Notes under the pieces: generated by a model | Database searches by the model: none | Told to the model about the DNA's origin: nothing | The model's input: only the letters and a program-made list of their open reading frames with translations | Made by a program: the position numbers and the translations under genes | Shown: positions 7,388-50,852 of the stretch, piece after piece | Position numbering within the stretch: the stretch's first letter is position 1 | How the letters are laid out: each line of letters begins with the position of its first letter | Source: a bacterium | GTDB lineage: Bacteria > Myxococcota > UBA727 > JAUIJE01 | Length of the DNA stretch: 64,000 nucleotides | NCBI GenBank assembly: GCA_030431455.1 | Contig: JAUIJE010000010.1 | Span: 124,001 to 188,000, forward strand | Direction: 5' to 3'

Positions 7388-7520
7388 GCTCCGCCTCCCC
7401 TGCGTCCCCGCCGCGCCCCCACGCGCCGGGCATGCTTGCATAGGTCAGGACCAAACCGAAACCCACCGCCCATCGGGCAAAGGGCGGGAATACCTGGTCT
7501 TTTTCGGGGGTTGGCGGCGT

Positions 7521-7848
7521 CTCGTGTCCAGCGACGAGACGCCCATGGGGCGCTCGTCGTGGCCCTGGCGAGCGCACGGCATCTTCGATTTTCAGATGCG
7601 CTCTAGTGTCCAGCGACGAGACGCCCATGGGGCGCTCGTCGTGGCCCTGGCGAGCGCACGGCATCTTCGATTTGAAGATGCGCTCTCGTGTCCAGCGACG
7701 AGACGCCCATGGGGTGCTCGTCGTGGCCCTGGCGAGCGCACGGCATCGTCGATTTTCAGATGCGCTCTCGTGTCCAGCGACGAGACGCCCATGGGGCGCT
7801 CGTTGTGGCCCTGGCGAGCGCACGGCATCTTCGATCTTCAGATGCGGT
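7521..7848. repeat. four tandem 82-bp repeats, each with two hairpins
   Basis: Four head-to-tail copies of exactly 82 bp (7521-7602, 7603-7684, 7685-7766, 7767-7848), differing at only a few positions each. Each unit holds a strong palindrome (CGACGAG, then CGCCC around ATG, then GGGCG, CTCGTCG) and a second inverted repeat (GAGCG..CATCT / AGATG..CGCTC). Copy 2 extends the second stem to CATCTTC/GAAGATG. Because 82 is not a multiple of three, no frame is preserved across units, so this is not coding. The last unit abuts the stop codon of the lipoprotein gene at 7849. The array therefore lies in that gene's 3' region and ahead of the ABC operon. It resembles REP/BIME-type structured repeats. 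Confidence 0.95.
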
Positions 7849-8985
7849 CTAGGCCAGGCCGCGCAGGCGTTTGCGCAATGACCATGCACCGAACAGCGCG
7901 AAGGCCAGGTAGGGGTCGCATCCCCCGTTGCCGTCGCCGCCGGCGCACCCGCCCGCGGTGGGCGCGACCGGATCCTCGGCCGCGGCGTCGTCCTGGACCC
8001 GGCCGGGCTGCACGTCGTCGACGGTGGCCGCGAACAGGTCGAGCTCGCTCTCGATGCCGAACAGCTCAACTTTGACCTTGGCCGGATCCCAGTCCGCGCT
8101 CGCGTCCTCGGGGGGCTGCAAAATCGCCGCCGTGGTCCAGGCCCCGATGCTCTCCGAGAGCCGCACCCTCGGGCTCGCCGACCACGCGTAGCTCATGCCC
8201 ACCACCTCGACGTTGCCGGCCCGGGCCCGGCCCCAGAGCTGGGCCGAGGTCTCGGTGGTGGACGCGATGGAGGCGAACACCGTGTCCACGTCCACCGACC
8301 GGACCACGTCGACGTCGTAGCGGACCTCGGTCCCGGCCACGTCGAGGATCACGTCCGCGCCCCCTTCGGCCAGGGCCCGGATCTCAAAGCCTTCGTCGGT
8401 CTCGACCACGTCGAGCGCGGTGGGTTCGCTCGCGCTGGCGCTGATCACGCCGGGGGCGTGCAGGGTGCCGCCGCAGCTGTCCTCGAGCCGAAGCATGGTC
8501 TTGACCGACTCGCCGTCGACCAAGCCAAACCGCTCCGGCAGTCGTGCATCGACATTGGACCCGGCGTTGCTCATGTCCAGCAAGTGCACCTGGCCGACCT
8601 GGGCCGCCCGCACCGGGAGCCGGTCTTGCACCTCGTCGTCGACCACCAGCGACAGGTATGTCTGCCCGGGGCCCACCGCGGTCACCGACGCGGCCGACGC
8701 CCGGCCCTCGTCCGCGACCACAAACACGTCGGGGTCGTCGCTCACCAACGTGCCGTTGACCAGCTCGCTGTCCTCCGAGGTGTTCAGCGGTTGGATCGAC
8801 ACCACGAACGACGTGCCCACCGCCGCCCCCTCGGTGAGCAACACGTCGCTGGCCGGGGCTTGGGCCCGAAAGTACGCCCTGCGCTCTTCGCCCATCACCC
8901 CCTGCCCGGGGCTCGGCAGCTCACAGGCGGCGGCGACAAGAAGGAGGGAACCAACCGGGGCCAACAGGAGACGAGTGGTGCGCAT
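7849..8985 (-). CDS. lipoprotein with beta-rich repeats and a MYXO-CTERM-like tail
   Basis: A 378-residue protein beginning with a lipoprotein signal (RLLLAPVGSLLLVAAAC, lipobox Cys near residue 21). It continues as beta-rich sequence resembling bacterial Ig-like domains (for example VTAVGPGQTYLSLVVDDEV) and ends with a Gly/Cys-rich stretch, a short hydrophobic helix and a basic tail (YLAFALFGAWSLRKRLRG). That ending looks like the MYXO-CTERM sorting signal of Myxococcota surface proteins. I do not recognise the function. The ATG at 8985 is preferred to 9003 because it gives a compact signal peptide; neither start has a clear ribosome binding site. Confidence 0.75.
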   Translation of the reverse strand: MRTTRLLLAPVGSLLLVAAACELPSPGQGVMGEERRAYFRAQAPASDVLLTEGAAVGTSFVVSIQPLNTSEDSELVNGTLVSDDPDVFVVADEGRASAASVTAVGPGQTYLSLVVDDEVQDRLPVRAAQVGQVHLLDMSNAGSNVDARLPERFGLVDGESVKTMLRLEDSCGGTLHAPGVISASASEPTALDVVETDEGFEIRALAEGGADVILDVAGTEVRYDVDVVRSVDVDTVFASIASTTETSAQLWGRARAGNVEVVGMSYAWSASPRVRLSESIGAWTTAAILQPPEDASADWDPAKVKVELFGIESELDLFAATVDDVQPGRVQDDAAAEDPVAPTAGGCAGGDGNGGCDPYLAFALFGAWSLRKRLRGLA

Positions 8986-45545: not shown

Positions 45546-46529
45546 TCAGTAGCGGACGATCTCGACGCGGTTCTCGTCGGGGTCGCGGCCGCGGGGGGGC
45601 ATGTTCGGGTCGTGGGGGGTCACGTCGGGGGTGTCGCCGTCGACGAGCAGCCACAGGATCACCCACACCGGGGCGAGACCGGGCAGACAGATGCTGCACA
45701 CCACACAGTTCAGCAGGGTGAACTTGTCCTCCGCTTCCGCTTTGGTCTCGATCTTCTCGAGGTCGCGCTCGTGCTCGAGCTCTTTGGCGTCCTCTTCCGC
45801 TTCCTGGGCGCGCTCCTTTTCTTCCTCCAGCTCTTGCTGGCGCTCTTCTTCCTCGTCGCGCTGGCGCTGCTCTTCTTCTTCTTTTTGGCGCTGCTCTTCT
45901 TCTTCTTTGGCTTGCTCTTCTTTGGCCTCGCGCTCTTCGCGCTCCTTTTCGTCCTCGGGCGCGACGAACTCAACGATGACGTCCTTGCCCGCGCGCACCA
46001 CCGCGATGTTGATCTGATCGCCCTTCATCGCGTCGATGATCGGCTCGAACGCGTGGCGCGGCAGCTCCGCGCTCACCCCGCCGGTGCTGGTGATGATGTC
46101 GCCCTGCTTGAGTCCCATCTCCTCGGCCAAGCCCCCGGACTCCACCGCGGTGACCATCAGCCCGACCTTGCGCTTGGCCTTCTTGAGCTCCGCGGGGGTC
46201 ATCTCCCGCACCGCGAACCCGAGCTCAGACTGGCTCACCGCCGCGGGCAGGTCCGCGGGCTTGTTCTTGTCGCCGTGCAGTCGCTTGGTCTCGCGCTTGC
46301 GCTCTGGGGCGCCCCCGGCGTCCTCACCGGTGGCTTCGTTGTCGCCCCCGGCCTTGTCCCCGCTTTTGCGGGTGGTCTTTCGCTTGGTCTTCTTTTTGGT
46401 GCGAACCGCCTCGGCTTGCGCCTCGCCCGTTTCCAGCGCTTGGGTCGAGGTGGCCTGCGCAGGTGCGCCCAAAAGCCCCACCGCCGCGACCAACAACCAT
46501 CCGGGCACCATCGTTTTCGACAAGTTCAT
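45546..46529 (-). CDS. exported PDZ-domain protein with Glu-rich coiled-coil
   Basis: 327 residues: a signal peptide (WLLVAAVGLLGAPAQA), a Lys/Arg/Thr-rich segment, a PDZ domain (about 110-185; VTAVESGGLAEEMGLKQGDIITSTGG), then about 80 residues of almost pure Glu/Lys/Arg/Gln coiled-coil, a Cys-containing hydrophobic helix (LLNCVVCSICLPGLAPVWVILWLLV) and a short tail. It may bridge envelope layers (inference). AGGAGGGG just before the ATG. It is the last gene of the run downstream of the sigma/caspase cluster. Confidence 0.8.
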   Translation of the reverse strand: MNLSKTMVPGWLLVAAVGLLGAPAQATSTQALETGEAQAEAVRTKKKTKRKTTRKSGDKAGGDNEATGEDAGGAPERKRETKRLHGDKNKPADLPAAVSQSELGFAVREMTPAELKKAKRKVGLMVTAVESGGLAEEMGLKQGDIITSTGGVSAELPRHAFEPIIDAMKGDQINIAVVRAGKDVIVEFVAPEDEKEREEREAKEEQAKEEEEQRQKEEEEQRQRDEEEERQQELEEEKERAQEAEEDAKELEHERDLEKIETKAEAEDKFTLLNCVVCSICLPGLAPVWVILWLLVDGDTPDVTPHDPNMPPRGRDPDENRVEIVRY

Positions 46530-46604
46530 GACCCCTCCTGCGCAGGTGGGGCCGGTCTAGAACAATCTGGGTCGCCGCGCGCCCCCCGTCGGGGAAAAAA
46601 TAGC

Positions 46605-47630
46605 TCAGGGTGCGGTGAGTGCGCAGACGCTGTCGTCCGCGCCCACGTCGGGGTTGTTGGGCTCGGGGTCGCGGTAATAGACGGTCTCGAGCTGTTCGTT
46701 CCAGCATTCGTCGACGTCCCACGACAGGCCGTCGGGGAGGTCGCCGCCGGAGACCTTGGCCGTGGCCCGGCCCGCTTGGCTGGCGTTCCACCGGCTCTCG
46801 ATGGCGTAGGTCTCTTTGGTGGAGAAGAAGTCGCCGTTGATGTCGGCCTTGATCACGAACGCGAACTCCCCGGCGCCATTTTCGAACAGGGCATAGGTGT
46901 ACTCGGCGGTGTCGGGGATGGCCCCGGTGGACCCGGGGGCCTCGATGTCGATGGAGATGGCCTGGGTGCCGCCGAAGTTGTCGTACACGATGTCGAAGGT
47001 GCCCTCGATGTCTTGGTTGGGGTCCAACTCCTTGAGGTGGTCGGCCTCGAGGAGCAGCTGGCCCGCCCCCGACCGCGCGGCCGCGTCGCTGCGCACCCCA
47101 GGGATGAACTCGCCGCTCAACACCCGCAACATCCCGCTGTCGTGGCGGGCCTCGTCACAGCCAATGTCATTGGCGCTGTCGCCGACATCGCCGTTGGCGA
47201 AGTGCAGGCAATGGGCGTAGCGGGGCTCGTCCCCGTCGTCGAGCCGGCGCATGGCGAAGCGGAACGAGGCGTTCTGGTCTTGGAGGTAGATCGGGCCCCA
47301 CACGCGTTCTTCGGAGCTGCGCTGCGATGGGGGATAGCGCATGATGTTGTCGATGATGGCGAGCAGGCCGAAGGTGAGGTCGTTGAGACCGCCGGCGATG
47401 TTCTGGGCTTGGCAGCGCAGGGTGTTTTCGGTGCACGCGTCGAGCGCTTGGGTGGTCTGGCCGGGGGTCGCGGCCTCGAGCCGGGCGTCGTCGACCCCGG
47501 GGGGCTGGAGCGAGACATCGCGCAGCTCGGGGATGGCGGAGAAAAAGAGCAGGTCGTCCTTGGAGTAGTTGCCGCAGCCGGCCCCGGAGAGGACGGCGGT
47601 GGCGAGCAGGAAAGGGACGATGCGGTTCAT
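46605..47630 (-). CDS. lipoprotein of unknown function downstream of the caspase gene
   Basis: 341 residues: a lipoprotein signal (IVPFLLATAVLSGAGC), an N-terminal helical part, and a beta-rich C-terminal part with Cys pairs (CTENTLRC, HCLHF, CDEARH). No known family. It is co-directional with and 80 bp after the caspase-like gene, so likely in the same cluster. ATG 47630 is preferred; ATG 47639 is possible. A near-perfect copy of the dispersed motif in palindromic form lies at 47162-47174. Confidence 0.7.
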   Translation of the reverse strand: MNRIVPFLLATAVLSGAGCGNYSKDDLLFFSAIPELRDVSLQPPGVDDARLEAATPGQTTQALDACTENTLRCQAQNIAGGLNDLTFGLLAIIDNIMRYPPSQRSSEERVWGPIYLQDQNASFRFAMRRLDDGDEPRYAHCLHFANGDVGDSANDIGCDEARHDSGMLRVLSGEFIPGVRSDAAARSGAGQLLLEADHLKELDPNQDIEGTFDIVYDNFGGTQAISIDIEAPGSTGAIPDTAEYTYALFENGAGEFAFVIKADINGDFFSTKETYAIESRWNASQAGRATAKVSGGDLPDGLSWDVDECWNEQLETVYYRDPEPNNPDVGADDSVCALTAP

Positions 47631-47712
47631 CTCGTTCAAATCGTAAACAACCGAGGCGGCGGGTTCTTGTGTGATCTAGACACCCCCGCGGGGGGAAAAG
47701 GAAAAGACAGGG

Positions 47713-49413
47713 TCAGAGGTCCAACCAGGCCACGAAGAGCGCCTCCACGTACGCTAAGTGCCTGGAATCATTGACCATATAGAGATAGTTGCCGCGCACC
47801 TGGGCCTCGACATGAAACCACTCCGTGGGCCGCCAGCCGGCGTAGGCCATCAGCCCGGGCACGAAGGGGTGAAAAAAGTACGCGTCCTGGCCGAGGGGCT
47901 TGGGCCCGGTGTAGTTGGCCACCACCAGCAACGCGGTCATGCGCGGCCCGCCCCCCAATGTAAATGGACCGAGGTCCCAGTTGAACAGGATCGTCTGGCT
48001 CGCCTGCACCTGGCTGTAGATCATGTCGTACTGCTGACCGAGCTCGGGCACGATCCAGGTGTGTTGGCGCAGACCGGCCCCCATGTCGAACTGCAGCTGC
48101 AAATGCCGGGTGAACACGTTGGTGGCGCGGGTCTGCACGGTGAGGAACACGATGGGGGGGAACATGTTGGTGCCCGGCTCGTCGAACACGAACTGCCCGC
48201 CGGTGCCGATGCCCAACGACCACCCGAGCCCGTCCTCAAAATCGGAGTCGCTCAGGGGCGTGCCTTTGGCGTAGTCGTCGTCGAACTCGACCTTCTTCAT
48301 CCCCGACTCGTCGACCACGAAGCTGCCTTTGTTGCGCGCCTCGAGCCGGCTCATCAACAGGTGGGTGTCGAGCCGCTTTTTGATCACGTACTCGCCCTTG
48401 GGCAGCGACAATTTCTGGGCCTGGCCCGCGACCTTCTCGATCTCGGCCACGAAGATCTCCCGGTCCATGTCCACGACGAAGTACCGCCCGCTCAGCTCCT
48501 GGGGGAAGGTGAGCTCGACGTCGGCCCCCCGGGTCTTGGCCAACACCACGTCCCCCGCTCCGGTGAGATCGTACTGGTACGTCGGGTGTTGCACCCCGCT
48601 GCGGGACTGGGCGGTCTGGGTCACGGTGCGGTGGTAGGCGTACTGGTAGGCCTCCCCCAATGTAATTGTGCCATCGTCGTTTTTGTCCGCCGCCCCGCGC
48701 AACCCGGTGGTCAGGTAGTGGGTAAAGAACGAGCCCTGGATGTCGTCCGATTCCTGGCTCGCCTCGTCCGCCGACGACGAGGTGATGATCACCTGGCCCC
48801 GGGCCTTGAGGTTGTCCTCCACCGTCATCACAAACGGGGGCGCCTTGGTGCCCCCCTTCTCTCGGGTGATGGCCCCCGCCCCGCAGCTGTCCAGAAACGC
48901 CAAGCGCATGTCCGCGCCCAACGACTCGATGCGCACCTTGAGCTCCTGCATCCCCAGGCGGGTGTCCCCGAGACGCAGCACGCCATTGGCGGCGTGGCCC
49001 GAGTAATAAAACACCACCAACACGTCGTGGCCGCGGCCCTTCTCTTGGGCGATGGTGACCTCGAGCTCGTCGAGGGCCTCGAGCACGTCCTGGGCCTCCT
49101 CGTCGACGTAGAACCGGATGTCGTCGCCGGAAAAGCCCCCCAGGTCTTGGAGCACGTCGCTCAGGCGCTGGGCGTCGCGTTCGGCGTAGCGCAACACGGG
49201 CAGATCGTCGCCGCCTTTGTGGTTGGCCACCAACACCGCGAGCTTGGTGGTCTTGGCCGCGGGGGCGGGGGCCGGCGCGGGGGCGGGCTTGTCCGCGAGG
49301 GGGACCGGGTCCTCGTCGGGCGCGCCTTGGGCGCGGGACGCGGTGCACCAAAGCACCAACGCGGCCGCTCCCGCGACCGCCGCCTTTGACCAGGCCTGCC
49401 CCCTCGCCTTCAC
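47713..49413 (-). CDS. caspase-like (C14) protease with outer-membrane-barrel-like C-terminus
   Basis: 566 residues: a signal peptide, a Pro/Ala linker, a caspase-fold domain (about 55-275) with catalytic His in FYYSGHAANG and Cys in FLDSCGAGA, and an EF-hand-like loop DKNDDGTITLGE. After a linker there is a C-terminal region of amphipathic strands (about 400-566; LQLQFDMGAG, WFHVEAQVRGNYLYMVND) resembling an outer-membrane barrel. Bacterial caspase-like proteins cleave after Arg/Lys or Asp depending on clade; here the site is unknown. The GTG start follows the anti-sigma stop by 7 bp. Confidence 0.88.
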   Translation of the reverse strand: MKARGQAWSKAAVAGAAALVLWCTASRAQGAPDEDPVPLADKPAPAPAPAPAAKTTKLAVLVANHKGGDDLPVLRYAERDAQRLSDVLQDLGGFSGDDIRFYVDEEAQDVLEALDELEVTIAQEKGRGHDVLVVFYYSGHAANGVLRLGDTRLGMQELKVRIESLGADMRLAFLDSCGAGAITREKGGTKAPPFVMTVEDNLKARGQVIITSSSADEASQESDDIQGSFFTHYLTTGLRGAADKNDDGTITLGEAYQYAYHRTVTQTAQSRSGVQHPTYQYDLTGAGDVVLAKTRGADVELTFPQELSGRYFVVDMDREIFVAEIEKVAGQAQKLSLPKGEYVIKKRLDTHLLMSRLEARNKGSFVVDESGMKKVEFDDDYAKGTPLSDSDFEDGLGWSLGIGTGGQFVFDEPGTNMFPPIVFLTVQTRATNVFTRHLQLQFDMGAGLRQHTWIVPELGQQYDMIYSQVQASQTILFNWDLGPFTLGGGPRMTALLVVANYTGPKPLGQDAYFFHPFVPGLMAYAGWRPTEWFHVEAQVRGNYLYMVNDSRHLAYVEALFVAWLDL

Positions 49414-49420
49414 CGAACCA

Positions 49421-50263
49421 TCACTCCCTTTGCTCGTCGGCGCGGGCCGCCTTCACAATGTAGGTGGAGCTTTGCACCACCCCGTCCACGTTCAATGTCT
49501 CTGTGCTCGACAGGTCGGCCCCGCTGCCCGCGAGGTCCTCGGCCGCGGTCTTCACCCGGTCGAGCAGGGCCTTGGGCGAGCCCGTCCCGTAGACCACAAA
49601 AAACCGTTCCGGCCCGGTGCTGTCGTCGAGGATCAAGCTCTCCTCGAGGACCGCGGGGCCGGCCCCGGCCGGGTCCTCGGTCAGCCCGCGTGCGTCATAG
49701 ACGCTCACCGCCCCTTTGCCGTCGATGCCCACCACCACCCGGGCCTTGGCCCCGACGTGGTCTTTGAGCACGAACTGGATTTGGTCGCCCGGGCGCAACA
49801 CTTCACCGTCGACGGACAGGCGCACCCCGTCCTGCTCCTTGACGAACACCCCGAGGTGTTGGCCGCCCTTGAGCCGAATGCCGGCTTCGCCCATGGGGCC
49901 GTCGGGGGTCGGGCCCTCGCCGGACGGCACCGCCACCACCGCCACCAGGGCGCAGGCCCCCACGAGCGCGGACAGCCCGGCGAGCTTGGGCCCGGTGAGC
50001 CACGCCCACACGCCCCCTTTGTCCTCGGCGGGGCCGAGCTTTTTCTCGAGGTCGGCGAAGCGGTGCGACAGGGCGAACGCTTGTTTGTCCGCTTCGAGGC
50101 GCTGGGCCTCGGCCGCGAGGGCGGGGTCGCGATCGAGGGCGGCGCGGACCTTGTCTGCGTCTTGGGCGGACAGTTCGCCGGCCACGAAGCGCGCCACCGT
50201 GAAGGGCCCCACGTCGTCGTCGCCGCGCCGGGTGAAGGTCAGGGAGGGGTCTTTGGCACTCAT
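49421..50263 (-). CDS. membrane anti-sigma factor with DUF4384-like periplasmic domain
   Basis: 280 residues. The N-terminal part (GPFTVARFVAGELSAQDADKVRAAL) resembles zinc-less anti-sigma domains; one membrane helix follows (about 98-112, GLSALVGACALVAVVAV). The periplasmic part has a DUF4384-like pattern (GEVLRPGDQIQFVLKD, RVVVGIDGKGAVSVYDARG, LEESLILDDSTGPERFFVVYG). DUF4384 domains are known companions of bacterial caspases. The gene is 7 bp from the sigma gene and 7 bp from the caspase gene, so the three clearly form an operon. It may hold the sigma factor until the envelope domain is triggered (inference). Confidence 0.8.
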   Translation of the reverse strand: MSAKDPSLTFTRRGDDDVGPFTVARFVAGELSAQDADKVRAALDRDPALAAEAQRLEADKQAFALSHRFADLEKKLGPAEDKGGVWAWLTGPKLAGLSALVGACALVAVVAVPSGEGPTPDGPMGEAGIRLKGGQHLGVFVKEQDGVRLSVDGEVLRPGDQIQFVLKDHVGAKARVVVGIDGKGAVSVYDARGLTEDPAGAGPAVLEESLILDDSTGPERFFVVYGTGSPKALLDRVKTAAEDLAGSGADLSSTETLNVDGVVQSSTYIVKAARADEQRE

Positions 50264-50270
50264 AAGGCAC

Positions 50271-50828
50271 TCACACCGGCGGCGGCCGGAAGGTCACCCC
50301 CGGCACCGCTTTTTCGATCTCCGCCCGGGACTGCTCGATGAACAGGCGCAGGCGCTTGCGCAAGGTCGGCGCGCTGATGCCGACCAGCTCGGTGATTTCT
50401 TTTTGCGTCATCTCGTCGACGAAATAGTACGTCGCGATCTCCGCCAACTCTGGGTCCACTTGGGCCAAGCACAACCGCACGAGCTGTTCGGTCTCGGTGC
50501 GCTCGGCCCCTTTTTGTTCGCCCCGGGGCGCGTTTTCGACCTCGCGGCGGTACTTATCGTGCCAAGCGGCTTTCTTGGCCCGGATGATGTTCAAGCAATG
50601 ATTGGTGGCGATGCGTGTCAGCCAGGTCAACGGACTGGCCTCACCGCGGAACGACGCGAGGTTCTTGTCCGCTTTGATGAACACATCGTGCATCGCGTCC
50701 TCCGCCTCTTGTCGGTCGCGCAAGAAATAGAGGCAGCGTTCGTACACACGGTAGGCGTGTGCCTCGTAGAGCTGTCGCAACGTCTCGCGCCGGTTCCTGG
50801 GTTTCACGGCTTCATGTTTTAGACACAT
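50271..50828 (-). CDS. ECF-type RNA polymerase sigma factor
   Basis: 185 residues: region 2 (LYEAHAYRVYERCLYFLRDRQEAEDAMHDVFIKADK, then LTWLTRIATNHCLNIIRAKK) and region 4 with a helix-turn-helix (MTQKEITELVGISAPTLRKRL), typical of extracytoplasmic-function sigma factors. It should direct RNA polymerase to its own operon and others. ATG 50828 is used; the upstream in-frame extension to 50870 has no similarity. A GTGGCG/CGCCAC inverted repeat (50853-50870) lies just upstream and may be a regulatory element. Confidence 0.92.
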   Translation of the reverse strand: MCLKHEAVKPRNRRETLRQLYEAHAYRVYERCLYFLRDRQEAEDAMHDVFIKADKNLASFRGEASPLTWLTRIATNHCLNIIRAKKAAWHDKYRREVENAPRGEQKGAERTETEQLVRLCLAQVDPELAEIATYYFVDEMTQKEITELVGISAPTLRKRLRLFIEQSRAEIEKAVPGVTFRPPPV

Positions 50829-50852
50829 CCGGGTCCGAGCCGGGAAAAGCCG

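Follow-up and report, generated by a model that had tools for sequence, protein, structure and literature searches.

A conserved Myxococcota sigma factor operon encodes a predicted outer-membrane caspase that may cleave the anti-sigma factor of the same operon

Introduction

It is already known that operons of myxobacterial metacaspases contain sigma-70 genes: a 2012 account, in the part considered here, describes sigma factors in four metacaspase operons of Myxococcus xanthus and the same structure in Anaeromyxobacter, Haliangium and Sorangium, and proposes a role in cell death and development (Asplund-Samuelsson et al. 2012, PMC3501461). Here we analyze an operon of this kind in a 64,000-nucleotide stretch of a Myxococcota genome (assembly GCA_030431455.1, contig JAUIJE010000010.1, positions 124,001 to 188,000; hereafter the window, numbered from its first letter), which encodes an extracytoplasmic function (ECF) sigma factor, a membrane anti-sigma factor, a caspase and a lipoprotein. 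The likeness to the published operons lies in the sigma70 gene beside a myxobacterial metacaspase. The anti-sigma factor, the predicted barrel on the caspase, the conserved lipoprotein, the promoter and the motif shared by caspase and anti-sigma factor, all of which we found here, are not mentioned in that part of the 2012 account, and a literature search made without most subscription journals turned up no earlier publication on the barrel, on the lipoprotein as a conserved partner, on the promoter or on the matched motif.

With the DegS-RseA-RseP-sigmaE pathway of Escherichia coli, the system proposed here has in common an exported protease, a single-pass anti-sigma factor with a periplasmic domain, an ECF sigma factor with a promoter of its own, and RseP homologues. 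In contrast to that pathway, the protease is a caspase and not an HtrA serine protease, is predicted to bear a barrel for the outer membrane and shares an operon with the sigma factor, and the periplasmic domain of the anti-sigma factor is DUF4384-like, not RseA-like. The release of an ECF sigma factor by a clan CD protease has a precedent in type III-E CRISPR, where the CHAT peptidase Csx29 cleaves Csx30, the inhibitor of the ECF sigma factor CASP-sigma (PMC10028731). Both systems set a caspase-like (clan CD) protease against an ECF sigma factor inhibitor, the cleavage being inferred in ours, but the Csx29 system is cytoplasmic, RNA-triggered and of the CHAT family, and it lacks a signal peptide, a barrel and an anti-sigma factor in the membrane. 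ECF54 sigma factors with CHAT, subtilase or carboxypeptidase neighbors likewise place an ECF sigma factor near a caspase-like protease and, unlike the module described here, are proposed to work without an anti-sigma factor (PMC8999054). The predicted barrel has the fold of OmpA, NspA and Ail (TMt 0.64 to 0.73) but follows an apparently exported caspase and a beta-sandwich in the same chain. For an expanded caspase family, this module supplies a defined candidate substrate and cut site together with a promoter and an output, all of them open to test; it is carried by relatives of Myxococcus and can therefore be tested in a harmless and genetically tractable host. If our reading is true, the module would amount to an envelope-stress pathway of the ECF type initiated by an outer-membrane-anchored caspase.

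Results and Discussion

The genes for the sigma factor (50271-50828), the anti-sigma factor (49421-50263), the caspase (47713-49413, GTG start) and the lipoprotein (46605-47630) lie in this order on the minus strand, as do all features located below, and are followed on the same strand by a PDZ/coiled-coil gene (45546-46529). These are the five open reading frames listed in a preliminary description of the window, which also gave the 7-bp gaps that we found both between the sigma factor and anti-sigma factor genes and between the latter and the caspase gene; the gaps are wider between the caspase and lipoprotein genes (82 bp) and between the lipoprotein and PDZ genes (75 bp).

The caspase and the anti-sigma factor carry matched R-x-K-G motifs, each of them a candidate cleavage site. 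In the caspase, the proposed self-cleavage site (R-E-K-G, residues 184-187, 48853-48864) begins seven residues past the catalytic Cys and is followed by a low-confidence loop in the structural model (about residues 188-203), with K186 and G187 invariant in 37 homologues and R184 kept in 90% or more of them. Caspases are usually self-processed at this position. In the anti-sigma factor, the proposed site-1 cleavage site (R-L-K-G, residues 130-133, 49865-49876) lies just outside the membrane, with K132 invariant (34/34) and R130 and G133 nearly so. R-x-K-[GAS] was found 5 to 27 residues past the transmembrane helix in 79 of 99 anti-sigma factors, compared to 3.6% of shuffled segments, and 140 of 145 have a basic residue followed by Gly or Ala near that helix. 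Since metacaspase-type enzymes cleave after Arg or Lys, both sites fit a single enzyme.

We also found that the two motifs vary together. Of 131 sigma-confirmed pairs, 92 have the motif in both proteins and 25 lack it in both, which leaves 14 discordant pairs (Fisher P = 1.4e-14). When the motif columns were removed before the caspase tree was built, five changes coincided in branch and direction, compared to 1.26 expected (P = 0.002, an approximate value from parsimony with branch-length-weighted placement), and of the 509 caspase columns R184 has the highest mutual information with the motif state of the anti-sigma factor. Where the Arg is lost, partners often retain similar variants, such as GIKGG/GIKGE at locus L077 and VPRGS/RPRGG at L017, and the motif is absent from five larger DUF4384 proteins (L211, L213, L214, L217 and L227) that, by frame length, are not anti-sigma factors.

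The caspase has a signal peptide-like start and a caspase domain at about residues 57-284 (48562-49245; Peptidase_C14, PF00656, E = 2.3e-14) that contains the catalytic His and Cys noted earlier, H140 and C177, both kept in 109/109 distinct homologues; Asp175, two residues before the catalytic Cys, is also invariant. Its score against NF047832 (EACC1-associated caspase), 68.7 bits, is under the curated cut-off of 140. An AlphaFold2 model based on a 37-sequence alignment (mean predicted local distance difference test score [pLDDT], 88.7) joins, in a single chain, a caspase fold to a beta-sandwich and a run of eight strands. VIA-align superposed this model on Arabidopsis metacaspase 4 (6w8r) with a Z of 22.9 and a root mean square deviation (rmsd) of 2.6 over 210 aligned residues, while Foldseek matched the same chain to caspases and legumains as well as to OmpA, NspA and Ail. 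The EF-hand-like loop proposed in the preliminary description was borne out: DKNDDGTITLGE (residues 243-254, 48652-48687) fits a 12-residue EF-hand loop and lies between model helices 229-241 and 252-267, with D243, L252 and E254 invariant and D247 nearly invariant among homologues.

Behind the caspase domain, the model has the strands of a beta-sandwich-like domain (about residues 290-376, 48286-48546). A C terminus that did not model as a barrel had been set beforehand as a possible refutation of the proposed barrel-like tail; residues 397-565 (47719-48225) model as an eight-stranded OmpA-like outer-membrane barrel, with Foldseek matches to OmpA (9fzc, TMt 0.73), NspA (1p4t, 0.73) and Ail (3qrc, 0.72). 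Independently of the model, 4 of 37 aligned caspase family members match OMP_b-brl and 4 of 37 match Opacity by sequence. As to the aromatic assembly signal, Phe is the terminal residue in 32 of 97 homologues with non-transmembrane tails, and the terminal residue of the window's caspase is Leu. A test of alternating hydropathy did not tell the barrel strands apart from the sandwich strands and was left unused. The caspase is apparently exported, and as modeled its small barrel would fix it in the outer membrane. With the caspase domain placed ahead of a barrel that has an even number of strands, the protease should be exposed to the periplasm rather than to the cell surface, so the earlier suggestion of a surface-tethered protease is unlikely.

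The sigma factor has ECF regions 2 and 4, with region 2 above the Pfam cut-off (Sigma70_r2, E = 1.4e-14), region 4 just below it, and a TIGR02937 match at 6e-24. Its start is more likely the GTG at 50807 (178 residues) than the ATG at 50828, since the -10 box described below overlaps the ATG. The anti-sigma factor has a cytoplasmic N terminus, one transmembrane helix (residues 96-112, 49928-49978, from hydropathy) and a DUF4384-like periplasmic domain. Taken alone, the window's protein has no Pfam match, either to DUF4384 or to zf-HC2. In the alignment of its family, which has few invariant positions, 21 of 34 members match DUF4384 and 17 of 34 match zf-HC2, so that calling it DUF4384-like was right by homology. 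The same alignment shows that the zinc-finger Cys and His residues are lost in the window's copy; anti-sigma domains without zinc are known. At three paralogous loci (L015, 4232-5311; L016, 8145-9680; L019, 4515-6032), a gene of 359 to 511 residues lies between the sigma factor gene and a small anti-sigma-like gene.

The gene order is conserved across Myxococcota, far beyond chance. A single-sequence search of genome contigs found no homologous loci, but an alignment query found 80, chosen by similarity to the query and mostly from Myxococcota, of which 77 were usable for synteny; they include Myxococcus, Corallococcus, Anaeromyxobacter, Pyxidicoccus and many metagenome-assembled genomes. The anti-sigma factor gene is directly upstream of the caspase gene in 75 of 76 loci, the sigma factor gene is the second gene upstream in 69 of 70, and the lipoprotein gene is directly downstream in 73 of 74; a second copy of the same lipoprotein family lies upstream of the sigma factor gene in 44 of 68. 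The median gaps among these four genes are -4, i.e., the genes overlap. Of 179 testable caspases in a wider sample, 151 have a sigma factor gene no more than 3.5 kb upstream, and both partners are present for 134. The idea that the neighbors would be conserved together therefore holds for these four genes. It fails for the PDZ gene (PDZ E = 3.5e-6), which has no homologue beside the operon elsewhere; with only 2 matching open reading frames across all loci, it was dropped as a partner.

The window's own genome has ten caspases, and one relative has up to 19 matches. In eight paralogues of this genome (L012 to L019), hydrophobic tails resembling transmembrane helices replace the barrel, and most of these have their own sigma factor and anti-sigma factor nearby; they are apparently the same module anchored in the inner membrane. 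A search of a plasmid collection gave distant caspases only. Three contigs titled Klebsiella pneumoniae or Bifidobacterium breve (L136, L144 and L162) carry the myxobacterial operon and are probably mislabelled metagenome bins.

A two-box motif, TTTC-N18-TGTC[CT]A, was found upstream of these operons without presupposing any known consensus. It precedes the first gene (score >12) in 37 of 57 non-redundant operons, compared to 2 of 228 control genes at these loci and to 12 among 285 shuffled sequences, and its fitted log-likelihood of 123 compares with 17 to 33 for shuffles and 25 to 52 for control genes. A classical GAAC-type ECF promoter is not present in most of the upstream regions examined. 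When held out of training, the window still outscores all 228 control genes. It contains exactly two copies, both TTTC-N18-TGTCTA, one before the sigma factor gene (50820-50847; -35 box at 50844-50847, -10 box at 50820-50825) and one before the lipoprotein gene (47677-47704).

The 7.7-Mb genome has 11 matches to TTTC-N18-TGTCYA, seven of them within 80 nucleotides upstream of a gene: the sigma factor gene, the operon lipoprotein gene, four lipoprotein-like genes (L177, L178, L183 and L185) and one ferredoxin-like gene. With spacings of N13 and N24 as controls, 1 of 16 sites is near a gene start, compared to 9 of 20 for N18. As evidence for a sigma factor regulon that includes further lipoprotein genes, these sites are no more than suggestive, because the lipobox test failed to pick out L177 and because many genes of this genome (24 of 153 sampled) have lipobox-like starts. 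The four candidates (around position 1500) are a beta-helix protein, a lipoprotein of unknown type, a protein resembling GH26 and a lipoprotein whose sequence contains Gly-Asp repeats and PSCyt2/PSCyt3 domains. A TGTCAA variant of the motif (L191, G000:C21:126612-126639) lies between the caspase paralogue L014, which has no adjacent sigma factor of its own, and a divergently oriented gene whose product is exported; cross-regulation is possible.

We think it rather probable that these components form a self-reinforcing envelope-sensing switch in which the caspase would be the site-1 protease, cutting both itself and the anti-sigma factor and so freeing the sigma factor; the cleavage is something we infer. 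The anti-sigma factor would hold the sigma factor at the inner membrane, while the caspase would be exported, facing the periplasm and built for anchoring in the outer membrane through its OmpA-like barrel. Candidate triggers are periplasmic Ca2+, acting through the EF-hand-like loop, or failed insertion of the barrel. Once triggered, the caspase would cut after Lys186 in its own chain (REK/G) and, close to the outer face of the inner membrane, after Lys132 of the anti-sigma factor (RLK/G), and a site-2 protease homologous to RseP would complete the release; two frames in the genome are above the TIGR00054 cut-off for RseP-type site-2 proteases. The freed sigma factor would use the TTTC-N18-TGTC[CT]A promoters to transcribe the lipoprotein gene as well as the operon to which it belongs, and probably genes for further exported lipoproteins.

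Several points weigh against this interpretation. The lead of R184 in mutual information is narrow (0.147, compared to 0.141 for the next caspase column), and this, together with the 14 discordant pairs among 131, indicates that shared ancestry explains part of the association. The anti-sigma factor motif could be the structural start of the periplasmic domain. The upstream regions in which the promoter motif was counted were also those used to fit it, and in three-fold hold-out 30 of 57 exceeded the 95% control quantile. Finally, distance is a difficulty: the anti-sigma factor site is about 17 residues from the inner membrane and might be out of reach of a caspase fixed in the outer membrane, pointing to action before barrel insertion or to places where the membranes are in close contact. 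A more specific proposal, which we regard as doubtful, is that the caspase senses outer-membrane assembly: an inserted barrel would remove the protease from the inner membrane, and failed insertion would lead to cutting of the anti-sigma factor and expression of the lipoprotein and envelope genes. If true, this would unite assembly sensor, assembly substrate and protease in one polypeptide.

The strongest competitor to the switch, though on balance an unlikely one, is that the caspase is merely an output of the sigma factor that degrades damaged envelope proteins or kills the cell, with another protease freeing the sigma factor and the R-x-K-G match being a coincidence or the site of a third protease. 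The preliminary description had also made the caspase a product of sigma factor release. In favor of this reading, the caspase gene lies in the operon behind the sigma factor promoter motif, and metacaspases are usually discussed in connection with cell death (PMC3501461). However, an output alone does not predict matched, covarying motifs in caspase and anti-sigma factor or a basic residue with Gly or Ala near the transmembrane helix in nearly all anti-sigma factors, and the R-x-K-G evidence makes the caspase likelier to be an upstream protease that acts on the anti-sigma factor as well.

Less likely again is that R-x-K-G serves in docking or structure, with the caspase linker and the anti-sigma factor segment competing for one binding surface and the anti-sigma factor controlling the caspase or the reverse. 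Such shared binding would likewise give covariation, and in each of the two proteins the motif borders folded regions, but its place in the caspase is the usual one for self-processing, and a basic P1 residue, with Asp175 invariant, fits metacaspase-type specificity. That the operon is an immune or abortive-infection system like the CRISPR-associated caspase/sigma modules is highly improbable, and we rejected membership in a defense system: despite the CHAT peptidase that cleaves an ECF sigma factor inhibitor in type III-E CRISPR (PMC10028731), PADLOC matched none of the five proteins, the caspase is predicted to be exported with an outer-membrane barrel, and the module is conserved and chromosomal in a genome with ten caspase paralogues.

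The lipoprotein, whose gene position is conserved, has an invariant Cys19 (40/40 family members); a crude lipobox expression catches just 20 of 40 and was not relied on. The protein has no Pfam match, and its model (pLDDT 87.8) gave no Foldseek match at E ≤ 0.001. VIA-align returned porins (Z about 8, rmsd 8 to 9) and OspA variants (Z 7.3 to 8.0, rmsd 3.5 to 4.7), and the fold was left unassigned. Elsewhere in the window, positions 7520-7850 hold a tandem array of four 82-bp units that are 94% alike.

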